NCBI GenBank assembly: GCA_036924855.1
Contig: JBAGRP010000001.1
Coordinates: forward strand, 6,808,001 to 6,872,000
DNA from: Nitrobacteraceae bacterium AZCC 2146
Lineage (GTDB): Bacteria; Pseudomonadota; Alphaproteobacteria; Rhizobiales; Xanthobacteraceae
DNA: 64,000 bases
Reading direction: 5' to 3'
The notes below the pieces were generated by a model. It ran no database searches, was not told where the DNA came from, and was given only the letters and a program-made list of their open reading frames with translations. Positions within the stretch are counted from its first letter, which is position 1. Each line of letters opens with the position of its first letter. A program made the translations under genes and the position numbers. Below are positions 9,654 through 29,931 of this stretch, in pieces.

Positions 9654-9685
9654 CAAGGTCTCTTTTGCTCGCCGTCGCCGTGAGG

Positions 9686-9747
9686 CGTTCCGTTTATAGA
9701 AACGTCGTTCCGGGAAAGATTAGAGAAAAATCCGGCTGTTCTGTCAA
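9686..9747 (-). promoter_or_regulatory. Promoter plus IclR-type operator of the aldolase-livK unit
   Basis: Read on the minus strand: TTGACA (9747-9742), 17 bp, TCTAAT (9724-9719), a near-consensus sigma70 promoter. Just downstream is the 19-bp palindrome CGTTCCGTTTATAGAAACG (9686-9704). A further half-site CGTTCCG lies at 9706-9712, exactly 20 bp from the first. The operator covers the expected transcription start and lies 33 nt from the ATG, which suits repression by the adjacent IclR protein. The same arrangement occurs before livH. Confidence 0.75.
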
Positions 9748-9832: not shown

Positions 9833-9898
9833 TTGACATCGTGAGCGCGGGCCGGATAGCTATAGCTAAAGGCGAACGCCGTTCCTCTTATCGGAATG
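9833..9898 (+). promoter_or_regulatory. Promoter and autoregulatory operator of the IclR gene
   Basis: TTGACA (9833-9838) is followed 16 bp later by GATAGC (9855-9860). Downstream is the 19-bp palindrome CGTTCCTCTTATCGGAATG (9880-9898), which matches the operators at the aldolase, liv and M24 promoters in 11 of the 14 arm positions. It overlaps an in-frame ATG at 9896, which is one reason to place the gene start at 9905. Negative autoregulation is the likely outcome. Confidence 0.65.
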
Positions 9899-9904
9899 TA
9901 TTAC

Positions 9905-11688: not shown

Positions 11689-12702
11689 CTAGACGACCCG
11701 CGGCGTGATCTCTTCGGCAAAAAACTGCATCTGATCGAGCAGTTCCTGGACGTCGTTGGCCGCGAAATATAGCCCGAGCAGATGGGTGACGCCGGCGTCC
11801 TTGAGCTTGTGCACCTTCTCGACGATGGCATCGGGGCTGCCGATCAGGTTGATGTCCTCCATCTTCAGGCCGGCCTCGTCCTTCAGCGTCGACTTCGACA
11901 GCGACAGCAGGTGCTTGTGCATCTGGCTTTGCTTGTAGCGCGCCACGGCTTGCTCGTGGTTGTGCCCGGCATGGACGATGTATTGTGGCGCTACCTGGAT
12001 CTGCGACGGATCGCGACCGGCCTTCACCGTCATCTCCATCATCCGCCCTACCATGGATTTGAGTTTTTCCGCCGGCATGCCCGCGGGAATCCAGCCATCG
12101 GCGCCCTCGACGACACGGCGGATGTGGTTCTTGTTGTTGCCGCCGAAATAGATCGGCAGCTTTTCCTGCTTCGGCTTCGGGAACAGCTCGACGTCCTTGT
12201 AGCTGTAATACTTTCCTTCGAACGTCGCGCTGCGTTCCTTGAAAAGAAGCTGCAACGCCTTGACGCCTTCCTCGACCATGTCGCCGCGATGGGCGCCGCC
12301 CTCGGGACGCAGCGCATCGAATTCCTCCTTGTAGGCGCCGACGCCGACGCCGATCTCCAGCCGGCCGCCGCTGAAATGATCCAGCGTCGCGATCTGCTTG
12401 GCGAGCACGACGAGGTCGCGCCGCATCGGCAGCACCAGGACGCCGGTGCCGAAGCGCAATGTTGTGGTGGCAGCGGCGATGAAGGCATAGGTCATCAGCG
12501 GCTCCCAAAACCGCGGCGGCACCGGAAATTCCTCGCGCACATAATGCTGGGTGGTCATGTGATCGTTGCCCCATACCGAGTGATAGCCCAGTCTCTCGGC
12601 ATGCTGGGCGATCTTGATCAAGGTTTCCGGGCTGGAAAACGGGATCGGATAGGTGAGGCCTTCCATTCCGGTCGGCAGGCCCGCGCTCACGATCAGACTC
12701 AT
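11689..12702 (-). CDS. LLM-class F420-dependent oxidoreductase, Rv2161c-like subgroup
   Basis: 337 residues. The stretch LVLPMRRDLVVLAKQIATLD followed by GGRLEIGVGVGAYKEEFDAL is characteristic of the Rv2161c-type F420 oxidoreductase subgroup. Other blocks are LGYHSVWGNDHMTTQHYV and LPIYFGGNNKNHIRRVVEGADGW. It is a close paralogue of 22764-23774, which opens the same way (SLPTGFEG against GLPTGMEG) and shares the VWGNDH motif. GGAGTG precedes the ATG. It lies 50 nt after hyuB in the operon, so it probably acts on a product or precursor of the hydantoinase step. Confidence 0.82.
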   Translation of the reverse strand: MSLIVSAGLPTGMEGLTYPIPFSSPETLIKIAQHAERLGYHSVWGNDHMTTQHYVREEFPVPPRFWEPLMTYAFIAAATTTLRFGTGVLVLPMRRDLVVLAKQIATLDHFSGGRLEIGVGVGAYKEEFDALRPEGGAHRGDMVEEGVKALQLLFKERSATFEGKYYSYKDVELFPKPKQEKLPIYFGGNNKNHIRRVVEGADGWIPAGMPAEKLKSMVGRMMEMTVKAGRDPSQIQVAPQYIVHAGHNHEQAVARYKQSQMHKHLLSLSKSTLKDEAGLKMEDINLIGSPDAIVEKVHKLKDAGVTHLLGLYFAANDVQELLDQMQFFAEEITPRVV

Positions 12703-16579: not shown

Positions 16580-17316
16580 TACGCAATGGTCTCCTTGATA
16601 TTGCCGCCGAGATAGGCCTCGCGGATCCGCGGATCCATGCGGACCTCCGCGGCCGGGCCTTCGAGAAATTTCTTGCCGAGCTCCATCACGATCGCGGTGT
16701 CGGACACCAGCAATGCGCCGTGGACGTTCTGCTCGACGACGAGCACGGTGACGCCGGCCGCGGCGATCTGCTGGGCGACGGCGAACACCTCGGCCTGCAT
16801 TTTTGGCGAGAGGCCGAGCGAGGGCTCGTCGAGCAACAGCAATTGCGGGCTGCTGAGCAATACCATTGCGGTCTCCAGCACCTGCTGTTCGCCGCCCGAA
16901 AGATTGCCCGCCAGCTCCGACCACTTTCGCGTCAGCATCGGAAACTGCGCGATGACGCGCGCGATCGCGGCGCGGTGGGTGCGGCCGGGCAGGGTGTAGC
17001 AGCCCATCTTGAGATTTTCGGCGACGCTCATCTGTGGAAAGTTGCAGCGGCCCTGCGGCACGAAGCCGATGCCGCGCTGCAGACGCTCCGACGGGCCGAG
17101 ATGTTCGATCGCCTCGCCATTGAAGATGATCTGGCCGGAGAACCAGCGGTTGGTGCCGAAGATCGCGCGCAGCAGCGTCGATTTGCCGGCGCCGTTGCCG
17201 CCGATCAGCGTGGTGATGGTGCCCGGCGCCAGCCGCGTCGAGAAATCACGCACGATCTGGACGTCGCCGTAGCCGGAGCAGAGATCGACGATTTCTAGCT
17301 TCGGATAGGCGCTCAT
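16579..17316 (-). CDS. livF: Branched-chain-type ABC transporter ATP-binding protein LivF
   Basis: 245 residues. Walker A GGNGAGKS is near residue 38, signature LSGGEQQ near 143 and Walker B LLLLDEPSLGLSP near 163; it ends AYLGG as LivF proteins do. ATG 17316 overlaps the livG stop as ATGA. It energises uptake by the LivH/LivM channel. The stop shares one base with the hyuA start. Confidence 0.92.
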   Translation of the reverse strand: MSAYPKLEIVDLCSGYGDVQIVRDFSTRLAPGTITTLIGGNGAGKSTLLRAIFGTNRWFSGQIIFNGEAIEHLGPSERLQRGIGFVPQGRCNFPQMSVAENLKMGCYTLPGRTHRAAIARVIAQFPMLTRKWSELAGNLSGGEQQVLETAMVLLSSPQLLLLDEPSLGLSPKMQAEVFAVAQQIAAAGVTVLVVEQNVHGALLVSDTAIVMELGKKFLEGPAAEVRMDPRIREAYLGGNIKETIA

Positions 17317-18107
17317 GTCGCCTCCGCCGCGCTGGGCTCGGACGTCGGCGCCATGCCGAGATAGGCCTCCAACACGCGTGGATCGCTGCGCACGTCGTCG
17401 GGCGAGCCCTCGGTCAGCTTGCTGCCCTGCTCGAACACCACCACCTTGTGGCACAAGCTGTTGATGAATTCGACATTGTGCTCGACGATCAGGAACGAGA
17501 TGCCGGTTGCATTGGCCTTGCGCAGGATCTCGGCGACCTCGTTGACCCGGGTCGGGTTGACGCCGGCGACAGGCTCGTCCAGCACAATCAGCCGCGGCCG
17601 CGCCATCATCGCTGCGGCAAAGGCCAATAGCTTCTTCTGGCCGTAGGAGAGCACCGTGGCCGGCGCGTCGATCAGACGCGTCAGGCCGACGAGGTCGATC
17701 AGCTCGCGGGCGCGGTCATGGGCAGCGGTGCTGGTGCGGCGAAAGGCGCCCGTGCGAACCAGCGCATCGAACCAGTTCAGTTCACGAAACGAGGCGTCGG
17801 CCACCAGCAGGTTGTCGAGCAGGTCATAGGAATCGTAGACCCGGACGTTCTGAAAGGTGCGGACCAGGCCGGCGCGCGCCACCGCGGCGGCATTGAGATT
17901 GGTAATGTCCTGGCCGTCCAACTCGACATGGCCGGCGTCAAGGCGCTGGAAGCCGCTGATGCAGTCGATCGTCGTGCTCTTGCCGGAGCCGTTGGGGCCG
18001 ATCAGGCCGGTGATGCTGCCTTCCTGGACATCGAAGGACGCGTTCTGCACGGCGTCGATGCCGCTGAAGGATTTTGACAGGCCGGCGATGGTGAGGATGG
18101 CGCTCAT
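17313..18107 (-). CDS. livG: Branched-chain-type ABC transporter ATP-binding protein LivG
   Basis: 264 residues. Walker A GPNGSGKST is near residue 37 and Walker B LIVLDEPVAGVNP near 169. The ABC signature is replaced by LSYGQKKLLAFA, which is common in LivG proteins. The C-terminal block RSDPRVLEAYLG is typical. It overlaps its neighbours by ATGA on both sides, so the liv genes are tightly coupled. Confidence 0.92.
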   Translation of the reverse strand: MSAILTIAGLSKSFSGIDAVQNASFDVQEGSITGLIGPNGSGKSTTIDCISGFQRLDAGHVELDGQDITNLNAAAVARAGLVRTFQNVRVYDSYDLLDNLLVADASFRELNWFDALVRTGAFRRTSTAAHDRARELIDLVGLTRLIDAPATVLSYGQKKLLAFAAAMMARPRLIVLDEPVAGVNPTRVNEVAEILRKANATGISFLIVEHNVEFINSLCHKVVVFEQGSKLTEGSPDDVRSDPRVLEAYLGMAPTSEPSAAEAT

Positions 18108-19060
18108 CGCAGCGCCTTCCGCAGCGCCGCGATGCGGCGCTGCTCAAGCCAGCCCGAGATCCCCGCCGGCATGAACATCATCACCGCCACCAGCACCACG
18201 CCGTAGATCACCATCCGTAGTTCGTTAGAGAAGCGCAGTGCTTCCGGCAGGATCACCATCGCGGCGCCGGCCAGCACCACGGCCCAGAAGCTGCCGGCAC
18301 CGCCGATGATCACGATGATCAAGAACGTCTGCATGTAGTAGAAATCGAGAAAGCTCGGATCGATGATCTTGAGGTGGAAGGCGAAGATCGCCCCGGCCAT
18401 GCCGGTGATGACCGCCGCGATCACAAAGGCGGCAAGCTTGTAGGGCGCCGGCGAGATGCCCTGGGATTCGACCAGCGGATCGTTCTGCTTGATCGCCTTC
18501 AGCACCAGTCCGATCCGCGACGTCATCAAGGCATACAAAAACGCCAGCGCGAGCAGCGTGAACGCCAGTGCGATGTAATAGAACCGCGCGCTGGTGTTGA
18601 ACACAAAGCCCATCAGCTGCGGCGGCAGCAACCCGGGAATGCCGAGCGGGCCGCGGGTGACGTCGATCCAGTCTCGCGCGACCAGGCTGGCCAGCAGCGC
18701 GAAGGTCAGCGTCACCACGACGAAGGCGTGACGCGTGGTGCGGGTGATGACAATGCCGATGACCGTGCCTAGGACCAGGTTGACGGCGCCGGCAAAAAGG
18801 ATGCCGGACCAGAAGCTCCATCCGAAATCCATCACCGCGATGGCCGAGCAATAGCCGCCGACGCCCCAGAAACCGAGCTGGGCGAAGGACAGCAGCCCGG
18901 CATAGCCGTAGACCAGGTTGAGTGAAGCAGCGGCGGTGAGGAAGATCAGGCCGGAAATCGCGATGCCGACGAAATAGTTCGAGCCAGTCATCAGCGGCAG
19001 GCACAGCAGCAGGATGACGGCCGCGAGCACGGCCGCGAGGGTCCATCGGGGCTGGTTCAT
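18104..19060 (-). CDS. livM: Branched-chain-type ABC transporter permease LivM
   Basis: 318 residues from ATG 19060, which overlaps the livH stop as ATGA; an open frame upstream of this is a shadow. Roughly ten hydrophobic segments are visible. The conserved LNLVYGYAGLLSFAQLGFWGVGGY is near residue 48 and GIPGLLPP follows a short basic loop. It ends in a basic tail (QRRIAALRKALR). It forms the channel with LivH. Confidence 0.9.
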   Translation of the reverse strand: MNQPRWTLAAVLAAVILLLCLPLMTGSNYFVGIAISGLIFLTAAASLNLVYGYAGLLSFAQLGFWGVGGYCSAIAVMDFGWSFWSGILFAGAVNLVLGTVIGIVITRTTRHAFVVVTLTFALLASLVARDWIDVTRGPLGIPGLLPPQLMGFVFNTSARFYYIALAFTLLALAFLYALMTSRIGLVLKAIKQNDPLVESQGISPAPYKLAAFVIAAVITGMAGAIFAFHLKIIDPSFLDFYYMQTFLIIVIIGGAGSFWAVVLAGAAMVILPEALRFSNELRMVIYGVVLVAVMMFMPAGISGWLEQRRIAALRKALR

Positions 19061-19944
19061 CCGACGCGCATGCTCCCGCGCTGGAAAATGCCGTCGGGCC
19101 GCAGCAGCACGGCGACGATCATGATGGTGAAGATCGCGCCTTCCTGCCAGACGATGCCGAAGAAGCCGCCGACCCAGCTCTCGATCATGCCGAGCGCGAT
19201 GGCGACCACCACCGCGCCGGTCATGTTGCCGAGGCCACCGATCACCACCAGCGCAAAGGCCTTGAAGATGATGGCCTGACCCATCGCCGGATTCAGCAGC
19301 TGGATCGGCGCGAGTGCCGCGCCGGCCAGGCCGCACAATGCCGCCGCCAGGGCGACCGCGTTGCGCGCGACATGGCGCGGCTTGATGCCGACCATCATCG
19401 CCGCCTCGCGGTTCTGCGCGATGGCGCGCATGGCGCGGCCGAACTGGGTGAATTTCAGCAGGCAGTATAGTCCTGTGAAAGCGGCGATAGACAGGCCGCC
19501 GGCGATCAGCCGCGTCACCGTGATCCGGATCGAGCCGATCTCGAGGCCGTCGAAGCCATAGGCCGTGTCGACCATCATCGGCGTTGCGGTGAACAGGTAC
19601 TGCATGCCGTACAGCAGGATCATGGAAATGCCGAGCGTGGTGAGGATGCTGCGCTCGAATTCTTTCTGGCCGACATGGCGCAGGAAGAATTCGTAGAGCA
19701 CGATGCCGACCAGCGATGTCGTCAGCACCGCCACCGCAAGCGCCGGCCAGTAGGACAATCCGAACAGCGGCAGCGACAATGCCATCGCGTAGCTGCCGAG
19801 CATTAGCAGTTCGCCGTGCGCGAAATTGATGACCTCGAGCACACCAAATATCAGTGCGAGGCCGACGGCGATCAGCGCGTAGATCAGCCCGAGCATCAGC
19901 CCATTCAGCATCAACTGCAGCAGGTAGGTGGCGCTGATTTCCAT
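19057..19944 (-). CDS. livH: Branched-chain-type ABC transporter permease LivH
   Basis: 295 residues, first gene of the livHMGF-hyuAB-LLM-LLM operon. Features are LMLGLIYALIAVGLALIFGV and INFAHGELLMLGSYA near the N-terminus and NREAAMMVGI in the EAA-like loop, as in LivH. The promoter and operator lie 25-83 nt upstream. No binding protein gene is in this operon; the co-regulated LivK-like protein at 7382-8518 is the best candidate. Confidence 0.92.
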   Translation of the reverse strand: MEISATYLLQLMLNGLMLGLIYALIAVGLALIFGVLEVINFAHGELLMLGSYAMALSLPLFGLSYWPALAVAVLTTSLVGIVLYEFFLRHVGQKEFERSILTTLGISMILLYGMQYLFTATPMMVDTAYGFDGLEIGSIRITVTRLIAGGLSIAAFTGLYCLLKFTQFGRAMRAIAQNREAAMMVGIKPRHVARNAVALAAALCGLAGAALAPIQLLNPAMGQAIIFKAFALVVIGGLGNMTGAVVVAIALGMIESWVGGFFGIVWQEGAIFTIMIVAVLLRPDGIFQRGSMRVG

Positions 19945-19968
19945 GGTACCCGGGCGGATCGAGCTAGA

Positions 19969-20180: not shown

Positions 20181-20239
20181 TTGACTTGGCTTCGACGCGC
20201 CGCTTACATAAGCAGAACGATGTACCGTTAATCGGAACG
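20181..20239 (+). promoter_or_regulatory. Promoter plus IclR-type operator of the M24-F420 operon
   Basis: TTGACT (20181-20186), 17 bp, TTACAT (20204-20209) is a good sigma70 promoter. The operator TGTACCGTTAATCGGAACG (20221-20239) is downstream, and an upstream half-site CAGAACG (20213-20219) lies 20 bp before CGGAACG (20233-20239). This repeats the arrangement at the liv and aldolase promoters in gene orientation. The rest of the 325-base divergent gap (19945-20269) shows no gene. Confidence 0.75.
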
Positions 20240-20269
20240 TATTTGTTGAGCCGTGAAAGACTAGTTGCG

Positions 20270-21457
20270 ATGCTGATGAATTCCGAGCGCCTGTTTGCCG
20301 GCATGAAGCTGCAGCGGCTTGATGCCATCGTAGCGACGATGCCGGAGAACGTGACTTATAGCAGTGGCTTCTGGGCGATGAGCCAGTGGATTCGCCGTGG
20401 ACCGCAGGCCTATGTGCTGACGCCCGCCGAAGGCAACGGAGAGCCGGCCGTGATCGCCAGCACCGGTCTGATCGACCTCGCAGCCGATCCCGACGTCTGG
20501 GTCAAGGATATCTCGCGGTTCGGAAAATTCGTCATCGACCGCACGCCTGAGGTCGGGCTCGACTCCCATGAATCCCGCATCGAAAAACTGATGGCGCAGG
20601 GAGACGATGGCGATGCCGTCGGCGCGCTGGTCACGGCGATCAAGGCGCGCGGGCTGCAGAACGGGCGCATCGGCGTCGAGGAAATCGGCATCCTGCCGCA
20701 GTACTGGGACAGGCTTGTCGAGGCGTTGCCCGCCGCGACCATCGTCCGCGCAGCCGATATCTTTCGTTATGCTCGCGCGATCAAGACGCCGGAAGAGATT
20801 TCGCGGCTGCGCAGGTCGGCCGAGATCGCCGATCTGTCGATCCAGGCCGCGTTGGCGCAGGCGCGCGTTGGTGCAACGGAAATGGACCTGGCCCGCGCGT
20901 TTCATGCCAAGACCATCATGGAAGGCGGCATGCCGGTTCTTGGATGCATCGGAGCCGGCACCCGCGGCGCCATGACCAATGTGCAGCCTTCGGAGCGCGC
21001 GCTGGTGCAGGGCGACGTGATCCGCTTCGATGTCGGCGGCCGCTATAAGCATTACCGCGCGGATATTGCGCGCAACGCGGTGCTGGGTGAGCCGACCAAG
21101 AAGATGAAGCATTATCATCGTGCGATCTGCGTCGGTCTCGACCGCGCCATCGAGATGATCAGGCCCGGCGTACGCGCGTCCGACGTCTTCGACGCTTGCG
21201 TCGAAACCGTAAGGCGGGAAGGAATGCCGCATTATCAGCGCAGCCATGTCGGCCACGGCATCGGCCTCGACGGCTACGACGCGCCAAATATCGCGCCCTC
21301 GAATACGGAGGTGTTCGAGGAGGGCATGGTGATCTGCGTGGAAACGCCCTATTACGAAATGGGCTTTGCCGGTCTGCAGGTCGAGGACACCATGGTGGTC
21401 ACTAGCGACGGCGTGGATTCCTTCATGCTCAGCGGCACCGAGCTTAAGGTGATCTGA
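20270..21457 (+). CDS. M24-family (creatinase/Xaa-Pro dipeptidase-like) metallohydrolase
   Basis: 395 residues. I place the start at ATG 20270 (20276 also fits) because the operator and promoter occupy the upstream in-frame sequence. The N-terminal creatinase-like domain (SERLFAGMKLQRLDAIVATMPENVTYSSGF) is followed by the pita-bread domain. Family blocks there include GDVIRFDVGGRYKHYRADIAR, SHVGHGIGLDGYDAPNI, VICVETPYYEMG and LQVEDTMVVT, which contain the expected Asp, His and Glu metal ligands. Members hydrolyse Xaa-Pro dipeptides, creatine or similar amide and guanidino bonds. As first gene of the F420 operon it is probably a pathway amidohydrolase rather than a general peptidase. Confidence 0.87.
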   Translation: MLMNSERLFAGMKLQRLDAIVATMPENVTYSSGFWAMSQWIRRGPQAYVLTPAEGNGEPAVIASTGLIDLAADPDVWVKDISRFGKFVIDRTPEVGLDSHESRIEKLMAQGDDGDAVGALVTAIKARGLQNGRIGVEEIGILPQYWDRLVEALPAATIVRAADIFRYARAIKTPEEISRLRRSAEIADLSIQAALAQARVGATEMDLARAFHAKTIMEGGMPVLGCIGAGTRGAMTNVQPSERALVQGDVIRFDVGGRYKHYRADIARNAVLGEPTKKMKHYHRAICVGLDRAIEMIRPGVRASDVFDACVETVRREGMPHYQRSHVGHGIGLDGYDAPNIAPSNTEVFEEGMVICVETPYYEMGFAGLQVEDTMVVTSDGVDSFMLSGTELKVI

Positions 21458-22713
21458 TGGCTCATGTTGCCGGTCTGCAATGCGTTCGTTGCGACGCGCT
21501 GTATCCAGCCGATCATTATGCCGAGGATTGTCCGATGTGCCGGCCCGTGGCGCGCAGCAATCTTATGGTCGCCTATGATGAGACGCTTCGGGTGCCGCGC
21601 GATAGGCCTTCAAACGATGCCAGCCGGGGGATGTGGCGGTATGGCGATGTACTGCCGGTGGATGCCTCGGACGGTGTCAGCCTCGGCGAGGGCGGTTCGT
21701 CGTTGCATCGCCTGGATCGTGCCGGCAGCAGCATTGGCGTTGCCAATCTATTCGGCAAGGACGAGACCCGAAATCCGACGTGGTCGTTCAAGGACCGGCT
21801 GGCCTGCATGGCAGTGTCGTCGGCGAAGAAGATGGGCGCCAAGGTCATCGTCTCGAGCTCGTCCGGGAATGCCGGCGCCGCCGTGGCGGCCTATTCGGCG
21901 AAGGCCGGCCTTCGCTGCGTCATCTTCACCTTCAAGGGTACCGCCGGGCCGATGCTGACGCAGATGCGAGCCTACGGTGCCACCGTGGTCGCCTGCGAAA
22001 ACAAAGATGATCGCTGGACGCTGATGGAGCACGCGGTCCGCAACTACGGTTGGTTTCCGACCTCGCCGTTTTTCGGCCCGGTGGTTGGAAGCAATCCATA
22101 TGGCATCGAAGGCTACAAGACGCTGGCCTATGAGATAGCCGAGCAGATGGACTGGAAGGTGCCGGACTGGTGTGTGGTGCCGGTGTGCTACGGCGACGCG
22201 CTGCTCGGCATGTGGCGCGGCTTCGAGGATATGATGGCGTTCGGCTGGACCGATCGTATGCCGCGCATGGTCGCGGCCGAGGTCTACGGTTCGCTTGGCG
22301 CCGCGCTGGCAAATGGCACCGATGCGCCACCTGACGTTCGCAAGAATTACGAGACCGCCGCGGTGTCGATCGGCGCCACCCGCGGCACCTATCAGGCGCT
22401 CGACATCGTCCGCCGCTCCGGCGGCACCGCGCTGACCATCGGCAACGACGAAATGATGCGCTGGCAGAGCGCGCTGGCCAGCAGCGAAGGCCTGTTCGTG
22501 GAGCCCGCCTCCGCCACCGGCCTCGCTGCGGTTGAACAGCTGGCACACACCGGTCGCATCGGCGCCGGCGAATCCATCGTGTCGCTGCTGACGGCGAGCG
22601 GCCTGAAGGATTCCGCCACGACCGCCTCGCTGCAGAGTGAGCTGCTGGGGTTGCCCTCGGATTTGTACAACGCGATGGCGGTGCTGAAGGCCGCGAAGGT
22701 GTTTCCCGATTAA
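21457..22713 (+). CDS. Threonine synthase-like PLP enzyme with N-terminal zinc ribbon
   Basis: 418 residues. The start ATG shares a base with the preceding stop (TGATG). Two CxxC pairs, CVRC and CPMC in the first 30 residues, form a zinc ribbon as in some archaeal-type threonine synthases. The PLP Lys lies in NPTWSFKDRLA near residue 110 and the phosphate loop in SSSSGNAGAAVAAY. The fold type II enzymes do beta- or gamma-elimination and replacement. A housekeeping threonine synthase would not be expected in this operon, so it may eliminate or exchange a side chain on a pathway amino acid. Confidence 0.83.
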   Translation: MAHVAGLQCVRCDALYPADHYAEDCPMCRPVARSNLMVAYDETLRVPRDRPSNDASRGMWRYGDVLPVDASDGVSLGEGGSSLHRLDRAGSSIGVANLFGKDETRNPTWSFKDRLACMAVSSAKKMGAKVIVSSSSGNAGAAVAAYSAKAGLRCVIFTFKGTAGPMLTQMRAYGATVVACENKDDRWTLMEHAVRNYGWFPTSPFFGPVVGSNPYGIEGYKTLAYEIAEQMDWKVPDWCVVPVCYGDALLGMWRGFEDMMAFGWTDRMPRMVAAEVYGSLGAALANGTDAPPDVRKNYETAAVSIGATRGTYQALDIVRRSGGTALTIGNDEMMRWQSALASSEGLFVEPASATGLAAVEQLAHTGRIGAGESIVSLLTASGLKDSATTASLQSELLGLPSDLYNAMAVLKAAKVFPD

Positions 22714-22763
22714 CGGCAGCGCAATGATCCCTTGTCAAAATCTGCGACGCCTGAGAGAACAAC

Positions 22764-23774
22764 ATGAAGTTCAGTGTCAGCCTGCCGACCGGCTTCGAAG
22801 GTGTGATGTATCCGGTGCCGTTTGTCAGGCCGGAGGATTTCATCGAACAGGGCCGGCTGTGCGAGCGGCTTGGCTATGATTCCGTTTGGGGCAATGACCA
22901 CATCACCACGCAGAATTACGTCCGCGAGCTGTTTCCCGGCAATCCACCGAACTTCTATGAGCCGATGATGGTGCTGGCGGCGATCGGCGCCGTCACCACC
23001 CGGCTGAAGCTTGGGACTGCGCTGACCGTGCTGCCGATGCGCGATCCGGTCTATCTCGCCAAGCAGGCGATCACCCTCGACCAGATGACCAATGGGCGAT
23101 TCATCATGGGGGTCGGGCTCGGCGCCTATCGCGAGGAGTTCCTGTCGTGGGGCGGATCGCGGGTTGAGCACGCGCGCCGCGGCGACATGATGGACGAAGG
23201 GCTGCAGGCGCTCGAACTTCTCTTCAACGAGGATCGCTGCAGCTACGAAGGCAAGTATTTCGCTTTCAAGGATCTGGAGATGTTTCCAAAGAGCAGGGCG
23301 CAGCCGTTCCCCCTCTACGTCGGCGGCCACAACATGGAAGCGCTGGAGCGCGCCGCGCGCTATGGCCAGGGCTGGCTGCCGGGCTGGCGTCCACTTAAGG
23401 AAATGGAAGAGCGTATTGCACGCCTGAAGGCGCGTGCGGTGGAGCTTGGCCGCAATCCTATCGATATCGAGATTGCGCCGCAGTTCTCGGTGACGGTCGA
23501 CAAGACGCTGGAGGCCGCAGAAAAGCGCTATATGGCCAGCGGCCTGGTGGCACACCGGGTGTCGCTGTCCTATACCGGCCGCGATCTCAGCCATCAGGTG
23601 ATTGCCAATCTTGTTGGATCGCCCGACGTAATCCTGGAGAAGATCGAAAAGCTGCGCGCCATCGGCGTCGATCATTGCAGCGCCTTGATGTTTCCCGCCA
23701 ACTCGGTGGCGGAGATGAACGAGCAGGTCGAGTGGTTCGCGACAGATGTGATGGCGAAGGTTGGAAAGAGCTGA
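22764..23774 (+). CDS. LLM-class F420-dependent oxidoreductase, Rv2161c-like subgroup
   Basis: 336 residues, paralogous to 11689-12702. Shared blocks include GYDSVWGNDHITTQNYV, LTVLPMRDPVYLAKQAITLDQ, GRFIMGVGLGAYREEF and FPLYVGGHNMEALERAARYG. It lies 50 nt after the threonine-synthase-like gene and just before fbiC, so this enzyme is made together with the F420 pathway. That is the strongest context evidence that the local LLM proteins use F420. The substrate is unknown. Confidence 0.85.
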   Translation: MKFSVSLPTGFEGVMYPVPFVRPEDFIEQGRLCERLGYDSVWGNDHITTQNYVRELFPGNPPNFYEPMMVLAAIGAVTTRLKLGTALTVLPMRDPVYLAKQAITLDQMTNGRFIMGVGLGAYREEFLSWGGSRVEHARRGDMMDEGLQALELLFNEDRCSYEGKYFAFKDLEMFPKSRAQPFPLYVGGHNMEALERAARYGQGWLPGWRPLKEMEERIARLKARAVELGRNPIDIEIAPQFSVTVDKTLEAAEKRYMASGLVAHRVSLSYTGRDLSHQVIANLVGSPDVILEKIEKLRAIGVDHCSALMFPANSVAEMNEQVEWFATDVMAKVGKS

Positions 23775-23905
23775 TGGGCAAGGGACACCGCGGGCGCATA
23801 TCAGCTGCGGTCTATGAACGCATTGCAAGACTCGCCGGTCGGCGTATTCATTTGTCGCCGGGATCGGCGCACGGTGGTGGCTGCGTCATGACGCGGTCAC
23901 CTTGA
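23774..23905 (+). CDS. Doubtful small basic open frame between LLM and fbiC
   Basis: A 43-codon frame whose ATG shares a base with the preceding stop (TGATG). It ends 11 nt before the fbiC start. The product is Arg/Gly-rich with no recognisable family. It could be a translated coupling leader or simply an open spacer. I list it only because of its tight fit between two operon genes. Confidence 0.2.
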   Translation: MGKGHRGRISAAVYERIARLAGRRIHLSPGSAHGGGCVMTRSP

Positions 23906-23916
23906 GGAGAGGGCCT

Positions 23917-26304
23917 ATGAATACGCTCGCGAAAGTAGAGCCGGAGCAGCTTCTCGCCGCGTTCGAACGTATGCCCGTAGCTGAATTATTTGAGCGCGCC
24001 AGCGAGTTGCGCCATGCCGGCCATGGCACAGCGATCAGCTATTCGCGAAAAGTGTTCATCCCGCTGACGCATCTGTGCCGCGACGTCTGCGGCTACTGCA
24101 CCTTTGCCAAGGCGCCGCGCGAAGTGGCAAGCCCCTATCTGTCGCCGGAGGATGTGCTCGCGATCGCTCGCGCCGGCGAGCAGGCCGGCTGCCACGAGGC
24201 GCTGTTCACCCTCGGCGACAAGCCGGAACTGCGCTATGCCGCCGCCCGCGATGCGCTGAATGAGCTCGGCTTCGCCAGCACCGTCGACTACCTGGAGTCG
24301 GTCTGCGCGCTAGTGCTGAAGGAAACCAGCCTGCTGCCGCACGTCAATGCCGGCGTGATGACCGAGCCGGAAATCGCAAGGCTGCGCAAGGTCAGCGTCT
24401 CCCAGGGCATCATGCTGGAGACGATTTCGCCGCGGCTGAACGATCGCGGAGGCGCGCATTTCGGCTCGCCCGACAAGGACCCGAAGGTTCGCATCGAGAT
24501 GATCGAAGCGGCCGGCCGCCAGCGCGTGCCGTTCACCTCAGGCATCCTGATCGGCATCGGTGAGACCCGGCTGGAACGCATACAGTCGCTGCTCGCACTG
24601 AAAGAGCTGCACGACCGATACGGCCATCTGCAGGAAATCATCGTGCAGAATTTCCGCGCCAAGCCCGGTACGCGCTTCGCCGGCTGCGAGGAGCCGGATC
24701 TCGACGATCTCCTGTGGACCGCGGCAGTGACGCGGCTGGTGTTCGGCGCGGCGATGAACATCCAGATTCCGCCCAATCTCAGCTACGACGCGTTTCCGCG
24801 CCTGCTCGAGGCCGGCATCAACGACTGGGGCGGGATTTCGCCGGTCACCGCCGACCACGTCAATCCGGAAGCGCCGTGGCCCGATCTGGCTAAACTCGAA
24901 TCCGCCACTGAGCGCGCCGGCTTCTCGCTGCAGCAGCGGCTGGCGGTCTATCCGGCCTATGTCGCGAAGTCGGCGGCGTGGCTCGACAAGAAGCTGGCGA
25001 CCAAGGTGCTGCGCACGGTCGATGCCGACGGCTTCGTTCGCGAAGACGGCTGGATGCCCGGCTCGCTGGAGCCGTTGCCGGTGGCGCCGCGCCGCGCGCG
25101 AATCGATCATGGCCTCGATGCGCTGGTCTCGAAAGCAGGCGCGGGAACGCGGCTCTCGGAAACCGAGATGGTATCGCTGTTCAAGGCGCGCGCCGGCGAT
25201 GTCGAACTGATCTGCTCGGCGGCAGATGAATTGCGTTCAAACACCAGCGGCGACCTGGTGCGCTACGTCGTCAACCGCAACATCAACTACACCAATGTAT
25301 GCAGCTACCAGTGCAGCTTCTGCGCCTTCTCCAAGGGCAAGATGCACGAACAGCTGCGCGGAAAGCCGTATGATCTCGCGCTCGAGGAAGTCGCGCGCCG
25401 CGCCCGCGAAGCGTGGAATCGCGGCGCCACCGAGGTCTGCATGCAGGGCGGCATCAATCCGCGCTATACCGGCGACACCTATCTGGAATTGCTGCGCACG
25501 GTGAAGAACGAAGTGCCGGGCATGCACGTGCACGCTTTCTCGCCGCTCGAAGTCTCGCAGGGCGCGGCGACGCTCGGCATTCCGGTCCGGCGCTATCTGG
25601 AGATGCTGCGCGATGCCGGTCTGGGCTCGCTGCCCGGCACCGCCGCGGAAATCCTCGACGACGAGGTGCGCGACATCATCTGCCCGGACAAGCTCAACAC
25701 CGAAGAATGGCTCGACGTCATCGGTACCGCCCATGAGGTCGGTCTGCGCACCACCTCGACCATCATGTTCGGCCATATCGAGCATTATGGCAGCTGGGCC
25801 AGGCACCTGTTGCATCTGCGCGACCTGCAGGAACGCACCGGCGGCATCACCGAATTCGTGCCGCTGGCATTTGTCCACATGGAAGCGCCGATGTCGCTGC
25901 GCGGGCAGTCACGCCTCGGCCCGACCTGGCGCGAGGTGCGGCTGATGCATGCGGTATCGCGACTGGTGCTGAATCCGCTGATCAGCAATATCCAGGCGTC
26001 CTGGGTCAAGCTTGGCGAGCAAGGAATTACCGCGCTACTGCAAGGGGGCGTCAACGATCTCGGCGGTACGCTGATGAACGAAAGCATTTCGCGCGCCGCC
26101 GGCACCCAGCACGGCCAGGAGTTCGCGCCCGAGCAGATGGAAAGCGTCATCAAGTCGCTTGGACGCCGCTTCGAGCAGCGCACCACACTGTACCAGCCGG
26201 TGCCGAAGGAGCGCTACGAAACGAGCTTCGATGCGGCGCCGCTGACTGAGATGGTGATGACGCCGTTCTCTGCGAAGCGAAAACACGTCGAGAATGTTCA
26301 ATGA
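23917..26304 (+). CDS. fbiC: FO synthase FbiC (CofG-CofH fusion), radical SAM
   Basis: 795 residues, close to the usual FbiC size. ATG 23917 follows GAGGAGAGGG. Two radical SAM domains are fused. The CofG-type cluster motif CRDVCGYC has ligands at residues 54, 58 and 61. The CofH-type motif CSYQCSFC has ligands at about 462, 466 and 469. The known reaction joins tyrosine and 5-amino-6-ribitylaminouracil to make FO, the deazaflavin chromophore of F420. The fused form is typical of Actinobacteria and some Proteobacteria; archaea use separate proteins. The other F420 genes follow directly, so this is a dedicated pathway. Confidence 0.96.
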   Translation: MNTLAKVEPEQLLAAFERMPVAELFERASELRHAGHGTAISYSRKVFIPLTHLCRDVCGYCTFAKAPREVASPYLSPEDVLAIARAGEQAGCHEALFTLGDKPELRYAAARDALNELGFASTVDYLESVCALVLKETSLLPHVNAGVMTEPEIARLRKVSVSQGIMLETISPRLNDRGGAHFGSPDKDPKVRIEMIEAAGRQRVPFTSGILIGIGETRLERIQSLLALKELHDRYGHLQEIIVQNFRAKPGTRFAGCEEPDLDDLLWTAAVTRLVFGAAMNIQIPPNLSYDAFPRLLEAGINDWGGISPVTADHVNPEAPWPDLAKLESATERAGFSLQQRLAVYPAYVAKSAAWLDKKLATKVLRTVDADGFVREDGWMPGSLEPLPVAPRRARIDHGLDALVSKAGAGTRLSETEMVSLFKARAGDVELICSAADELRSNTSGDLVRYVVNRNINYTNVCSYQCSFCAFSKGKMHEQLRGKPYDLALEEVARRAREAWNRGATEVCMQGGINPRYTGDTYLELLRTVKNEVPGMHVHAFSPLEVSQGAATLGIPVRRYLEMLRDAGLGSLPGTAAEILDDEVRDIICPDKLNTEEWLDVIGTAHEVGLRTTSTIMFGHIEHYGSWARHLLHLRDLQERTGGITEFVPLAFVHMEAPMSLRGQSRLGPTWREVRLMHAVSRLVLNPLISNIQASWVKLGEQGITALLQGGVNDLGGTLMNESISRAAGTQHGQEFAPEQMESVIKSLGRRFEQRTTLYQPVPKERYETSFDAAPLTEMVMTPFSAKRKHVENVQ

Positions 26305-26364
26305 TGCGGTCGGTTTTTGATCTTGTCCTTTAAAGCAACTATAGGGGAGCGCGCGAGACCGCCA

Positions 26365-27132
26365 ATGACCAGGTCGATCACCTATACCACTCTGCCGAAT
26401 ATCCCGCTGGTGCAGCCTGGCGACGATATCTGCGCACTCATCAGCGCAGGACTGGCTCGGGCGGAGATTGCCATCCAGGATGGCGACGTCATCGTAATCG
26501 CGCAAAAGATCGTGTCGAAGTCGGAAGATCGCTACGTCGATCTGGCTCAGCTAGTTCCCTCGGCGCAGGCGAAGGAGCTGGCCGCGGTGACGGGCAAGGA
26601 TGCGCGGCACATCGAGGCCGTTCTCGCGGAAACGTCAGAAGTCCTGCGGTTCAAGCAGAACGTTATGATCGTCGCGCACCGACTGGGCTATGTGATGGCC
26701 AATGCCGGTATCGATGAATCGAACATCGAGCGCGTCGATGGAGTCGACCGGGTGCTGTTGCTGCCGGTCGATCCCGACAAGTCGTGCCGAGCGATCAAGG
26801 CGAAACTGGATCGCGAGTTCGCGGTTTCGGTAGGGGTCATCATCAATGACAGCTTTGGCCGGGCGTGGCGCAATGGCGTGGTCGGGGTGGCGCTGGGCGC
26901 AGCTGGCATCTCGTCACTGCACAACCTGATCGGTTCGCCGGATCTGTTCGGCCGAGCCATGAAGGTGACCGAAGTCGCGATTGGCGACGAACTGGCCGCA
27001 GCAGCCTCGCTCGTCATGGGACAGGGCGCCGAAGGGCTGCCGATCGTTCATGTCCGTGGCTATCAGAACCGCGGACCGGAAAACGATGCGGCGGCGCTGA
27101 TTCGACCGAAGCATATGGATATGTTCCGTTGA
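26365..27132 (+). CDS. cofE: Coenzyme F420-0:L-glutamate ligase (CofE type, single domain)
   Basis: 255 residues from ATG 26365; upstream in-frame TTG codons at 26317 look unused. CofE blocks are LPNIPLVQPGDDICALI, QDGDVIVIAQKIVSKSEDR, IINDSFGRAWRNGVVGVALGAAG and GDELAAAASLVMGQG. It adds glutamate residues to F420-0 with GTP. It has only the ligase domain; the C-terminal FMN-binding domain of mycobacterial FbiB, which reduces dehydro-F420-0, is absent. Its stop overlaps the probable cofD start. A truncated second copy lies at 46370-46540. Confidence 0.93.
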   Translation: MTRSITYTTLPNIPLVQPGDDICALISAGLARAEIAIQDGDVIVIAQKIVSKSEDRYVDLAQLVPSAQAKELAAVTGKDARHIEAVLAETSEVLRFKQNVMIVAHRLGYVMANAGIDESNIERVDGVDRVLLLPVDPDKSCRAIKAKLDREFAVSVGVIINDSFGRAWRNGVVGVALGAAGISSLHNLIGSPDLFGRAMKVTEVAIGDELAAAASLVMGQGAEGLPIVHVRGYQNRGPENDAAALIRPKHMDMFR

Positions 27133-28115
27133 CCGCGACAGCTGCAACGCCGCCGCCGATCGCTGTCGATCCATCCAGGACGGTGGTGGCCATCTGCGGC
27201 GGCGTTGGCGGCGCGAAGCTGGCGCTCGGCCTGCAGCATTTGCTGGGCGATCGGCTGACAGTCGTTGTCAACGTAGCCGACGATTTCGAGCACATGGGGC
27301 TGCGGATCTGCCCCGATCTCGATACCGTGATCTACACGCTGGGCGGCCTGAGTGATGAGGTCCGCGGCTGGGGCCGCGCCGGCGAGACCTGGAATTTCAT
27401 GGAGGCCACCCGCCAGCTCGGCGGCGAGGACTGGTTCGCGCTCGGCGACCGCGATCTCGCGCTTCATGTCGAGCGGACCAGGCGTCTCGCCTCTGGTGAA
27501 ACGCTGACGGAGATCGTCGCTGGCATCGCCAGAAAGCTTGGGATCGCGCCGCGTTTGTTGCCGGTGACGGATGACGATCTCCGGACCAAGGTGAATACGG
27601 AAATCGGTATCCTCGATTTCCAGCGTTATTTCGTCGAGCACCGCTGCGCGCCGACGGTGCATAGCATTTCGTTCGACGGGGCAAAAGTCGCGCGCCTGAA
27701 TCCGGCGGTCAGCGCAGCCCTGTCGTCGCCGGAACTCGGCGCGATCATCATCTGTCCTTCCAACCCCTACCTGAGCATCGATCCGATGTTGTCCGTGCCC
27801 GGCCTCCGAGATGCGATGAGGGTCAGCGGAGCACCTGTCGTCGCGGTGTCGCCCATCATCGGCGGCCGTGCCATCAAGGGGCCGACCGTGAAAATCATGA
27901 ACGAGCTAAAAATCGAGACGACCTCGGCCTCGATCGCAAGCCACTATGCCGATTTTATCGACGGCCTTGTGATCGATAATGCGGACGCCGACGACGCGCC
28001 AGGCATCGTCCCGCACATCCATGTGGCGCCGACGCTGATGACGGACCTGAATTCCCGAATTGCGCTGGCGCGGGAGGTTCTCACCTTCGCCGAATCTTTG
28101 TCGGGGAAGCGATGA
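27129..28115 (+). CDS. cofD: 2-phospho-L-lactate transferase (CofD/FbiA)
   Basis: About 328 residues if TTG 27129, overlapping the cofE stop as TTGA, is the start. GTG 27183, directly before the conserved VVAICGGVGGAKLALGL, would give 310 residues and has AGGA upstream. Other CofD blocks are VVNVADDFEHMGLRICPDLDT, LGDRDLALHVERTRRL, GLLLSL-like repeats replaced by VTDDDLRTKVNTE, and AIIICPSNPYLSIDPML. It transfers the phospholactyl (or equivalent) group from the GDP-activated donor to FO. The start codon is uncertain; the function is not. Confidence 0.93.
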   Translation: MTATAATPPPIAVDPSRTVVAICGGVGGAKLALGLQHLLGDRLTVVVNVADDFEHMGLRICPDLDTVIYTLGGLSDEVRGWGRAGETWNFMEATRQLGGEDWFALGDRDLALHVERTRRLASGETLTEIVAGIARKLGIAPRLLPVTDDDLRTKVNTEIGILDFQRYFVEHRCAPTVHSISFDGAKVARLNPAVSAALSSPELGAIIICPSNPYLSIDPMLSVPGLRDAMRVSGAPVVAVSPIIGGRAIKGPTVKIMNELKIETTSASIASHYADFIDGLVIDNADADDAPGIVPHIHVAPTLMTDLNSRIALAREVLTFAESLSGKR

Positions 28116-28158
28116 ACGCCAACAGCGAACCACGTCAAACAGCGGCTGGCTGGTCAGC

Positions 28159-28851
28159 ATGAAGTCGCTCGCGATCATCATTCCTGTCAAACGGCCCGAA
28201 CTGGGCAAGTCCCGGCTTGCGGCGGCTCTGCTGCCTCACGACCGGTTGGCGCTTAACCGTGCTCTACTGAAGCACACGTTTGACGAGGCGGCCGGGCTTT
28301 CCGACATCGCGGCCATCTATGTTGTCACGAAGTCGCCAGACGTCCGCACCGAAGCGGCAAGGCGCGGCTTCTTGACCTGCGATGAACCCGAGGCGTGCGA
28401 TTTGAACGGCGCGATTGCGATCGGTGCTACGCATGCGCGAAAGGACGGCATGCTCGAAATCATGGTTCTTCCGGTCGATTTGCCAAGACTTTCAGCGCGA
28501 CGGCTGCGAAGTCTGGTTGCGCAATTTCGAAGCAGCCTCGACGTGGTGATCGTCACCGATCGCGCCGGAAGAGGCACTAATGTTCTGCTGTGGCGCCCGG
28601 TGGGCTCGGCGATTTTCCAGTACGGGACCGCAAGTGCGGAATGTCACGCGCGCAGCGCTAGGGGTCTCGGCCTGCGGCTGGCGATAAGCCAGGATGCCGC
28701 GCTTTCATTCGATATCGATACGCCGCAAGACCTCCAGCACTGGCTGCATGACGGTCGGCTGTCGATAGGCGCGGGAGATGGTCTTGCGTTTCCGCCAGGC
28801 CTCGACGTGCACGGCGGCGCAGCAACCCAGGATCAGGAACAAAGAATTTGA
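28159..28851 (+). CDS. cofC: 2-phospholactate (or equivalent) guanylyltransferase CofC/FbiD
   Basis: 230 residues. The opening SLAIIIPVKRPELGKSRLAA is the nucleotide-binding signature of CofC, followed by MVLPVDLPRLSARRLRSL and the C-terminal SFDIDTPQDLQHWL. It activates the three-carbon acid with GTP for CofD. Known homologues differ in substrate: 2-phospholactate in archaea, phosphoenolpyruvate in mycobacteria, 3-phosphoglycerate in Paraburkholderia. Which applies here cannot be told by eye. It completes the F420 set 43 nt after cofD. Confidence 0.9.
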   Translation: MKSLAIIIPVKRPELGKSRLAAALLPHDRLALNRALLKHTFDEAAGLSDIAAIYVVTKSPDVRTEAARRGFLTCDEPEACDLNGAIAIGATHARKDGMLEIMVLPVDLPRLSARRLRSLVAQFRSSLDVVIVTDRAGRGTNVLLWRPVGSAIFQYGTASAECHARSARGLGLRLAISQDAALSFDIDTPQDLQHWLHDGRLSIGAGDGLAFPPGLDVHGGAATQDQEQRI

Positions 28852-28926
28852 GACACGCGTTGCGTCGTCGCGCGCGTTGGATTTAGTTCTTGTTGAGCGC
28901 CCGGTTCGGGCCGTTATGGAGGTTTC

Positions 28927-29931
28927 ATGCTAAAGATCGGATATAAGGCTTCTGCCGAACAATTTACACCCAATCAGTTGCTGGAGTTCTCCTGCCTCGC
29001 AGAAAAAATGGACTTCGAGTCGGTGTTCATCAGCGATCATTTTCAGCCGTGGCGTCATACCGGCGGCCATGCGCCGTATTCCTTCGCATGGATGGGCGCT
29101 GCCGGCGCGAAGACGAGCAGGATCCAGATCGGCACCAGCGTGGTGACGCCGACATTCCGCTATCATCCTTCCGTGGTGGCGCAGGCAGTCGGCACGCTGG
29201 GCGCGATGTTTCCCGATCGAATAATCCTCGGCATCGGCACCGGCGAGTCACTGAACGAAGTGCCTGCGATTGGAATCAAGTGGCCGGGCTTCAAGGAGAG
29301 ATTCACCCGCCTGAAGGAATCCGTCGTCTTAATGAACCGCCTCTGGCGGGAAGAGCGGGTGAGTTTCGAGGGCCAGTACTACAAGACGGAGAATGCGACA
29401 ATCTACGATCGACCCGAGAACCCCGTTCCGATCTACATTGCCGCGGCGGGGCCAACGGCCGCCACGTTGGCCGGCGAGTTCGGCGCGGGCTTTATCTGTA
29501 CCAGCGGCAAGCCGCCGGAACTGTACCGTGAAACGCTGCTGCCGAAGGTCGCGGAAGGGCTGGCGACGGCGGGGCGCGCGGACGACAGCATCGATCGCAT
29601 GATCGAGATCAAGCTTTCCTTCGACAGCGATGTTCAGAAGGCAAAGGAAGACACCCGGCACTGGGCGGCCCTTGCGTTGTCCGCCGAAGAGAAGACCAGC
29701 GTCGAGGATCCGCTCGCGATGGAACGTCTGGCTGACGCGCTTCCGCTCGACCGGGCCGCGAGCCGGTGGATCGTCTCGTCGGATCCGGACCAGGTGGTGG
29801 AAAAGATCCGTCCCTATGTGGATTTGGGGTTCCGGCATCTGGTGTTTCACGCGCCTGGTCTGGACCAGGAAAGGTTCCTTAGGTTGTTTTCGGAGAAGGT
29901 CGGCCCGAAGCTGCGCGCAGCATTCGGCTAG
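28927..29931 (+). CDS. fgd: F420-dependent glucose-6-phosphate dehydrogenase homologue (FGD)
   Basis: 334 residues preceded by GGAGG. The whole length follows mycobacterial FGD1: SDHFQPWRHTGGHAP, GTSVVTPTFRYHP, GIGTGESLNEVP. The catalytic residues of FGD1 (Asp39, His40, Trp44, Glu109) appear as Asp37, His38, Trp42 and Glu107. Its four phosphate-binding residues (Thr195, Lys198, Lys259, Arg283) appear as Thr192, Lys195, Lys256 and Arg280. It should therefore reduce F420 with glucose-6-phosphate, feeding F420H2 to the LLM enzymes. It follows cofC by 75 nt. A substrate other than glucose-6-phosphate is possible but less likely. Confidence 0.88.
   Translation: MLKIGYKASAEQFTPNQLLEFSCLAEKMDFESVFISDHFQPWRHTGGHAPYSFAWMGAAGAKTSRIQIGTSVVTPTFRYHPSVVAQAVGTLGAMFPDRIILGIGTGESLNEVPAIGIKWPGFKERFTRLKESVVLMNRLWREERVSFEGQYYKTENATIYDRPENPVPIYIAAAGPTAATLAGEFGAGFICTSGKPPELYRETLLPKVAEGLATAGRADDSIDRMIEIKLSFDSDVQKAKEDTRHWAALALSAEEKTSVEDPLAMERLADALPLDRAASRWIVSSDPDQVVEKIRPYVDLGFRHLVFHAPGLDQERFLRLFSEKVGPKLRAAFG

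Follow-up and report, generated by a model that had tools for sequence, protein, structure and literature searches.

A candidate pathway-private F420 supply: F420 biosynthesis genes share a three-box operator with a divergent catabolic arm in an alphaproteobacterium

Results

Eight genes join F420 biosynthesis with putative catabolic enzymes

We analysed a stretch of 64,000 nucleotides (the window) from Nitrobacteraceae bacterium AZCC 2146, whose genome is a single contig of 7.64 Mb (JBAGRP010000001.1; the window covers positions 6,808,001 to 6,872,000 of the forward strand), and studied an array of eight genes that joins the synthesis of the rare redox cofactor F420 with putative catabolic enzymes. 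All on the plus strand and in this order, the genes encode an M24 hydrolase, a threonine-synthase-like enzyme dependent on pyridoxal 5′-phosphate (PLP), an oxidoreductase of the luciferase-like monooxygenase (LLM) family, FbiC, CofE, CofD, CofC and Fgd (Table 1). Likely gene starts were picked from start codons and homolog alignments; measured from these starts, the junctions are a 1-nt overlap followed by gaps of 50, 142, 60, 47, 43 and 75 nt, confirming the initial annotation, which had described eight genes in one direction with gaps of about 140 nt or less. The widest gap, of 142 nt, lies directly before FbiC. The eight genes are presumably transcribed as one operon, and F420 is presumably made.

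The LLM and the five F420 proteins exceed the NCBIfam cut-offs of their families, and the M24 and threonine-synthase-like proteins pass Pfam cut-offs only. We found the bacterial F420 biosynthesis set: an FO (7,8-didemethyl-8-hydroxy-5-deazariboflavin) synthase with both radical S-adenosylmethionine halves, in which both CX3CX2C motifs are present, together with CofC, CofD and CofE, all over curated cut-offs. FbiC gave one match in the genome (E <= 1e-100) and CofD also one (E <= 0.001), and it is these two proteins that the term sole copy covers below. Fgd could be aligned over its full length with two F420-dependent glucose-6-phosphate dehydrogenases (FGDs) in the PDB, and it keeps, as read by eye in the alignment, what we take to be the active-site residues of FGD1. 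From its score and these alignments it looks like a real FGD, in line with the earlier proposal that it recycles F420H2. The closest PDB relatives of the M24 protein are prolidases, with the ectoine hydrolase DoeA also among its relatives, and homologs at 77-82% identity occur in L114, L116 and L119-L123 (loci and genomes of the family are cited by L and G numbers). The threonine-synthase-like protein stayed under every NCBIfam cut-off among the 25 best of 42 families (best PRK08197, 265 vs 303 bits).

CofE is without the C-terminal domain of FbiB. A weak match to this reductase domain (60 bits) at G000:C1:1682746-1683255 is a possible, unproven dehydro-F420-0 reductase. PF04075 reductases were not found elsewhere in the genome in a search whose control panel gave no match either. 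Use of 3-phosphoglycerate (3-PG) by CofC has been linked to residues M91, C95 and H145 in the accessible text of PMC8764529; the CofC of the window has L, I and R at these positions (mapped by eye in the HMMER alignment, S162 left out), and the 3PG-F420 variant is not favoured.

A three-box operator marks both arms of a divergent regulon

The F420 operon is one half of a divergent regulon that extends left to about 7.4 kb, and its two arms are separated by 325 bp (19945-20269). This gap carries the motif CGTTCCGATTA three times, one copy with a mismatch; a fourth copy (one mismatch) precedes the aldolase gene, and a fifth, unrelated one lies at 48399. The copies are arranged as direct pairs with a spacing of exactly 20 bp. 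When pairs of the half-site TAATCGGAACG at exactly this spacing were searched for (at most 5 mismatches in 22), three were found in the window, all at promoters of the cluster. The controls from relatives (20 loci, 400 kb) contained none, and 75 other FbiC loci (1.42 Mb) contained one. Moreover, 21 loci of relatives with the same FbiC type or the same catabolic genes contained 20 pairs, one of them counted twice where L184 overlaps L120. Alignment of 22 sites, 3 of them in the window and 19 in relatives, gives the consensus TnATCGGAACGnnGTTCCnnTnATCGGAACn. Its middle GTTCC box was not used in the search and is nevertheless conserved (T in 22/22, C in 20/22 and G in 18/22 sites), and TTGAC occurs within 34 nt upstream in 16 of the 22. 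The operator is thus laid out as three boxes, an inverted pair and an outer direct repeat. The accessible text of PMC8222616 describes sites of three boxes, the outer one a direct half-site, for the IclR-family regulators PcaU, PobR and HmgR.

In both arms the operator starts at the proposed -10 hexamer and covers the start point. The initial annotation had placed the genes behind one promoter/operator; an operator does lie at the proposed promoter, but the feature is only one arm of the divergent regulon. The promoter proposed for the F420 operon is weak by consensus, and a consensus scan of the plus strand from 19900 to 30300 gave no sigma-70-like promoter, missing also this by-eye promoter before M24.

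The operator is confined to the cluster in the genome and enriched near it in relatives

The pattern GGAACGNNGTNCCNNTNATCGGAAC was searched for in the whole 7.64-Mb genome. With at most two mismatches, four matches were obtained, all in this cluster (19970-19994, 20214-20238, 9687-9711 and 9873-9897 in window coordinates, in two divergent regions), and the reversed control gave none. Because GGAACGNNGTNCCNNTNATCGGAAC was built from these sites and those of relatives, the result speaks for absence elsewhere, not for presence here. The same operator stands at the F420 operon, the catabolic arm and the aldolase/IclR gene pair, and nowhere else at this threshold, which agrees with the earlier suggestion that F420 is made on demand.

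Of 14 relatives with the threonine-synthase-like gene, we further searched 11, leaving out the drafts G114, G176 and G269; loci from several of these 11 genomes had contributed to the pattern. With at most three mismatches, 48 matches were found against 5 for the reversed control, and 31 of them lie within 25 kb of the threonine-synthase-like gene, as compared with an expectation of 0.5. All 11 genomes contribute to these 31, which correspond to 29 distinct places since two sites in G380 were counted on both strands.

The left arm encodes an importer, hydrolase-like proteins and two LLMs

The left arm encodes an amino-acid-type ATP-binding cassette (ABC) importer with LivH-, LivM-, LivG- and LivF-type components, two hydrolase-like subunits and two LLMs (Table 1). 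Beyond these lie genes for an IclR-family regulator on the opposite strand, a PLP-dependent aldolase-like enzyme and the periplasmic binding protein of the importer. For the HyuA- and HyuB-like proteins, the caprolactamase models are the closest, yet the scores are far under their cut-offs; the HyuA-like protein is likely an ATP-dependent lactam or hydantoin hydrolase. One of the LLMs resembles the F420 enzyme Mer and is likely F420-dependent.

Table 1. Genes and regulatory features of the divergent regulon, in window coordinates.
Feature	Position	Strand	Basis or remark
Periplasmic binding protein of importer	7382..8524	-	importer component
GntG/threonine-aldolase-like PLP enzyme	8589..9656	-	GntG model 62.6 bits, cut-off 230
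Operator at aldolase promoter	9686..9716	-	half-site pair
Operator match at the IclR gene's own start	9873..9897	+	2 mismatches
IclR-family regulator	9896..10735	+	PF09339 helix-turn-helix and PF01614 ligand domain
Mer-like LLM	10683..11654	-	Mer model 166 bits (cut-off 276); best PDB match Mer 1z69, E=8e-37
Left-arm LLM oxidoreductase	11689..12702	-	TIGR03619, over cut-off
HyuB/caprolactamase-beta-like subunit	12753..14504	-	184 bits, cut-off 1000
HyuA/caprolactamase-alpha-like protein	14507..16924	-	513 bits, cut-off 1000; start uncertain
LivF-type ATPase	16579..17454	-	start uncertain
LivG-type ATPase	17313..18107	-	importer component
LivM-type permease	18104..19336	-	importer component
LivH-type permease	19057..19944	-	homologs 91-92% in L120, L121, L123, L185
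Divergent-arm operator	19969-19999	-	half-site pair
Divergent-arm promoter, TTGACG-17-TAGAAT	20027-19999	-	promoter scan
Proposed F420-operon promoter, TTGACT-17-TTACAT	20186-20208	+	by eye
F420-operon operator, immediately after the proposed promoter	20209-20239	+	half-site pair
M24 (creatinase/prolidase-like) hydrolase, first gene of the operon	20270..21457	+	PF00557, 150 bits
Threonine-synthase-like PLP enzyme	21457..22713	+	PF00291, over Pfam cut-off
Operon LLM oxidoreductase, Rv2161c type	22764..23774	+	TIGR03619, 193.5 bits (cut-off 166.9)
FbiC (CofG-CofH fusion), FO synthase	23917..26304	+	PRK09234, 1143 bits (cut-off 1018); ATG start, listed ORF from 23902
CofE, F420-0:glutamate ligase	26365..27132	+	TIGR01916, 271 bits (180.65); ATG start, listed ORF from 26317
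CofD, phospholactate/phosphoenolpyruvate (PEP)-type transferase to FO	27180..28115	+	TIGR01819, 280 bits (257.45); inferred GTG start, listed ORF from 26865
CofC guanylyltransferase	28159..28851	+	TIGR03552, 133.5 bits (105); ATG start, listed ORF from 28060
Fgd	28927..29931	+	TIGR03554, 478 bits (cut-off 420); ATG start

Two genes of the operon co-occur with F420 genes across the family

FbiC was found in 93 and CofD in 97 of 391 genomes of the family, and within the window's own genus FbiC occurs in this genome only (1 of 18). The threonine-synthase-like gene (E <= 1e-100) is present in 15 of the 391 genomes, every one of which has both FbiC and CofD. The operon LLM (E <= 1e-90) is present in 16, with CofD in 16 and FbiC in 15; these are the same 15 genomes plus G021, a 680-contig draft with CofD and no FbiC match. 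If genomes are taken as independent, the chance of such co-occurrence is near 1e-10, a figure that overstates the case because the carriers fall in only 6 or 7 genera. At 13 of 17 such loci FbiC is on the same contig, 1.4-32.5 kb away, and the remaining four are on draft contigs without FbiC; CofD lies within 15 kb in 11 of the 17.

A close HyuB (86-87%) exists only in G121, G212 and G239, where the same two arms face each other but FbiC comes first on the right, with CofE-CofD farther downstream in G212 and G239. In G082, homologs of LivH (92%) and of the binding protein (89%) lie near another copy of the PLP gene. L114/L115 combine M24, the PLP enzyme, a Tct transporter, a molybdenum (Mo)-hydroxylase, two LLMs, a flavin reductase and FbiC with an Fno-like enzyme, CofE, CofD, CofC and two IclR genes.

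We then surveyed FbiC loci in general. The family has 105 FbiC places, from which 100 stretches were taken, 96 of them with FbiC; the survey set comprised 78 stretches of at least 19 kb (L184 dropped), each a distinct FbiC locus, with only the edge of FbiC in L112. Reference proteins came from the window and seven loci, self-matches included, and as controls we took one locus from each of 20 FbiC-positive genomes, always at the same fractional position. An LLM other than Fgd was found in 62 of the 78 stretches versus none of the controls, a Mo-hydroxylase in 49 versus 4 of 20, and a lactam-hydrolase-like gene (HyuAB or LamB/CT type) in 38 versus none. Fno was detected in 38 and Fgd in 8 stretches, and neither in the controls. 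Only 8 stretches were without LLM, Mo-hydroxylase and lactam-hydrolase-like gene. The general picture from which the initial annotation had set out, that F420 genes are usually constitutive and scattered, is not borne out in this family in view of the 62 loci with an LLM in the same 19-20 kb, though CofD shares the stretch with FbiC in only 42 of 78.

Other F420 clusters of the family (L164, L141 and similar) join LamB/YcsF and CT_A_B (5-oxoprolinase-like) genes with Mo-hydroxylase, LLM, coenzyme A (CoA) transferase and serine dehydratase. L164 shows LamB/YcsF, paired CoA transferases, a PLP enzyme and a serine dehydratase as neighbours, and in L141 CT_A_B occurs with a GntR regulator. FbiC is matched twice in several genomes; in G380 (L128, L113), G211 (L114/L147) and G218 (L116/L129) the clusters around the two copies differ in composition, and CofD is matched three times in G380. 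It is as if a separate F420 supply were kept for each pathway in these genomes.

The F420 genes of the operon have different nearest relatives

The nearest relative of FbiC is in G380 (80%, L113), those of CofE (69%) and CofD (66%) are at the second F420 locus of G218 (L129), and that of Fgd (71%), judged by nearest identity only, is in a third kind of locus (L199, L201, L205). Trees of FbiC and CofD agree with these differing nearest relatives. An approximately unbiased (AU) test rejected the grouping of the window CofD with the CofDs that accompany its FbiC type (p = 5e-65; 1.6e-5 for a wider group), with groups named after inspection of the tree and a tree of the quick kind. A single transferred F420 cassette was rejected on these grounds: such a mosaic argues against movement as one cassette, and transfer as a single module, which the initial annotation had held possible, was not supported. 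It is likely that the same combination arose by assembly from separate pieces, and this would argue for selection for co-location.

No tRNA that could border a genomic island was found in the window or within 40 kb of it on either side, in an analysis that included no search for integrases. The G+C content is 59-60% in the flanks versus 61-65% across 6-30 kb of the window. An empty site was not found, as the right flank (56500-62500) matched six of seven genus relatives only weakly (64-84% over about 50-410 bases). A DDE transposase (PF13546) lies at 54470-55813, on the right side of the catabolic region. FbiC matches on plasmids comprised 60 records, and among the 30 listed the best reached 62%, none being close to the FbiC of the window.

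A second catabolic cluster and other genes flank the regulon

At 1389-7214 the window encodes a short-chain dehydrogenase/reductase (SDR), two opine-dehydrogenase-like proteins, a flavin mononucleotide (FMN)-dependent dehydrogenase and an LLM (6135-7214); homologs of the second opine dehydrogenase (79%) and of this LLM (80%) stand beside an FbiC locus in G139 (L161). A second catabolic cluster (30737-46094) abuts the F420 operon. Its minus strand encodes an Opp-type ABC transporter and an SDR, and its plus strand an IclR protein, a thiohydantoin-desulfurase-like protein, a HyuA-like protein, an LLM (41421-42461) and CoxM- and CoxL-type Mo-hydroxylase subunits (42422-46094). This cluster may draw on the same F420. 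Farther right lie an oxidoreductase molybdopterin-binding protein (49289-50524) and a protein like di-haem cytochrome c peroxidase/MauG (51041-52513).

Discussion

A model for substrate-controlled F420 supply

The gene content, the sole copies of FbiC and CofD, the architecture of the operator and its restriction to the cluster, and the link with F420 genes across genera can be read from the sequences. From these we propose that the F420 supply is private to the pathway and controlled by its substrate, a reading to which we give a probability of roughly 0.75. Since FbiC and CofD are single-copy, the F420 supply appears to hang on the operator switch.

In the proposed mechanism, the IclR protein would sit on the three-box operators right after the -10 box of the two divergent promoters. 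It would act as a repressor, blocking both promoters without substrate and leaving them when substrate is present. Release would switch on the importer and catabolic enzymes of the left arm together with M24, PLP enzyme, LLM, FbiC-CofE-CofD-CofC and Fgd on the right. FbiC would produce FO, CofC and CofD would add the three-carbon phosphate linker and CofE glutamate, and Fgd would reduce F420 with glucose-6-phosphate. F420H2 would then feed the LLM reductases, most likely the Mer-like LLM, which would reduce a C=N or C=C bond of an imported nitrogen-containing ring. HyuAB would open lactams or hydantoins, M24 would cut an amide or cyclic amidine, and the PLP enzymes would finish the route. Ectoine-hydrolase-like M24 with a PLP enzyme, pyrazine/imidazole and uric-acid-like routes were weighed as substrate candidates, and we see about an even chance that the substrate is an N-heterocycle.

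Alternative explanations

Several observations weigh against the proposed substrate-controlled supply. That the IclR protein binds the operators is itself a proposal drawn from its position and family, and 17 of the 48 operator matches in relatives fall outside the cluster. The only CofD of G218 is 1.3 Mb from the cluster. The HyuB-type match (E <= 1e-150) occurs in 111 of 391 genomes, many without FbiC, and is not a marker of F420. The scan of proteins from 7.4 to 29.9 kb showed no Mo-hydroxylase, such as the xanthine dehydrogenase type expected for a reductive uric acid pathway, and a first step on an aromatic ring would thus have to lie elsewhere. The C-terminal dehydro-F420-0 reductase of FbiB, which belongs to the actinobacterial PEP route, gave 60.4 bits as the best genome match to TIGR03553 (cut-off 249.55), and the control panel likewise had none over cut-off. 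Moreover, "one catabolic route", as the initial annotation put it, may be too narrow, as this F420 could also supply the LLMs at 6135-7214 and 41421-42461.

The 142-nt gap before FbiC, the longest in the operon, bears on whether the operator governs only M24, PLP enzyme and LLM, with fbiC-cofEDC-fgd transcribed from a promoter of their own and F420 made constantly. The gap could hold a weak promoter, and consensus scans may miss weak or non-sigma-70 promoters. No half-site was found within 300 nt before FbiC in L114, L116, L118, L119 and L128, and L113 has single half-sites only. Yet the consensus scan gave no promoter-like site before FbiC in the window, and the operator pair heads the FbiC-containing unit in four relatives, directly before FbiC as first gene in L120, L121 and L123, and ahead of a PLP gene followed by FbiC in L128. 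The mere traces of F420 reported for two alphaproteobacteria in the accessible text of PMC8498797 also speak against constant supply, and we regard a separate promoter as quite unlikely. The use of F420 by the neighbouring LLMs, assumed in the initial annotation, is most likely for the Mer-like one. The operon LLM is as similar to FMN-dependent as to F420 enzymes and could be either; its best PDB match is an FMNH2-dependent dimethylsulfone monooxygenase, and its 86% homolog in Afipia adjoins a flavin reductase. The accessible text of PMC6279831 gives no sequence rule that separates F420 from FMN LLMs. If all neighbouring LLMs were FMNH2-dependent monooxygenases, F420 would serve another enzyme. 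That is unlikely given that a left-arm LLM is closest to the F420-dependent Mer, that all 16 genomes with the operon LLM have CofD, and that LLMs are so frequent in FbiC stretches and absent from the controls.

Whether the bound regulator blocks or activates is less clear-cut. Both PcaU and PobR have three-box sites and act as activators, as reference titles in PMC8222616 also say, and the IclR protein might act likewise, or the operator might be used by a different regulator. In both arms of the window, however, the operator extends from the proposed -10 box over the start point, so that a bound protein should block RNA polymerase, and the intergenic region of the regulator gene itself has two operator matches; we consider activation, or another regulator, rather unlikely. 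It is very unlikely, in our view, that the cluster serves to build a compound (a natural product or osmolyte) in whose biosynthesis F420H2 is the reductant. F420-LLM reductases are found in actinobacterial biosynthetic clusters, according to the accessible text of PMC8498797, and the aldolase is weakly like GntG of a natural-product pathway. Against this stand the divergent amino-acid-type importer with its binding protein, the lactam/hydantoin-hydrolase-like subunits and the IclR control, and no peptide synthetase, polyketide synthase or export gene was present among the scanned proteins of both arms.

Relation to known systems

Control of cofactor genes by the regulator of the consuming pathway is known in principle from the cob-pdu genes of Salmonella, in which B12 synthesis and the propanediol pathway are under one substrate-responsive regulator. 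There, as proposed here, cofactor synthesis and the consuming pathway are switched together, in the window with the sole FbiC and CofD copies under the pathway's operator. The cob-pdu system differs in cofactor and chemistry, in its AraC-type regulator PocR and in having the biosynthetic genes in a separate long operon. The npd genes for picrate and 2,4-dinitrophenol of Rhodococcus opacus HL PM-1 likewise couple F420H2-dependent LLM catabolism to an IclR-type regulator. They use Fno rather than Fgd and are not known to include F420 biosynthesis genes in the regulon. NpdR is listed as an IclR-family protein in the accessible text of PMC8222616, and the picrate LLM as F420H2-dependent in that of PMC8498797. 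A report of F420 genes under catabolic control was not found in the open-access literature searched, whose coverage was partial.

The reductive uric acid pathway offers a precedent in logic, with ring dearomatisation by reduction, hydantoin-type hydrolysis and a PLP lyase, and its Chloroflexota versions have a putative F420 LLM; it differs in its hydrolases and reductase, and the accessible text of PMC12507026 mentions no F420 biosynthesis in the cluster. Closer to the window are the same-family F420 clusters with Mo-hydroxylase and 5-oxoprolinase-like genes, which likewise have LLM, importer, lactam-hydrolase-like and PLP enzymes, but have LamB/YcsF and CT_A_B in place of HyuAB, with Fno in many of them and a GntR-type regulator in L141. 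Among Alphaproteobacteria, Oligotropha carboxidovorans and Paracoccus denitrificans are F420 makers, as is proposed for the organism studied here, and their CofCs prefer 2-phospholactate and accept some PEP (accessible text of PMC8498797 and PMC8764529, which names neither a regulation nor a substrate for them).

Implications

If true, a pathway-private F420 supply could explain why only traces of F420 were reported for these two alphaproteobacteria (accessible text of PMC8498797). For following this up, the cluster offers a candidate regulator, an operator of 31 bp and defined promoters, with the F420 genes as proposed targets and a handful of possible F420 consumers. The model predicts F420 only with the right substrate, and screening with an operator reporter could find that substrate. 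In Gram-negative hosts the operon might also serve as a naturally inducible unit for F420 production that brings its own recycling enzyme. More broadly, the switch offers a route to learning what related bacteria use F420 for. We tentatively suggest, at slightly less than even odds, that F420 in this family, perhaps in Alphaproteobacteria at large, is a pathway-private rather than a housekeeping cofactor, whose biosynthesis would have been repeatedly rebuilt within catabolic clusters and switched by substrate to serve the reductive, F420H2-driven opening of N-heterocycles by LLMs in concert with Mo-hydroxylases and ATP-dependent lactam hydrolases.

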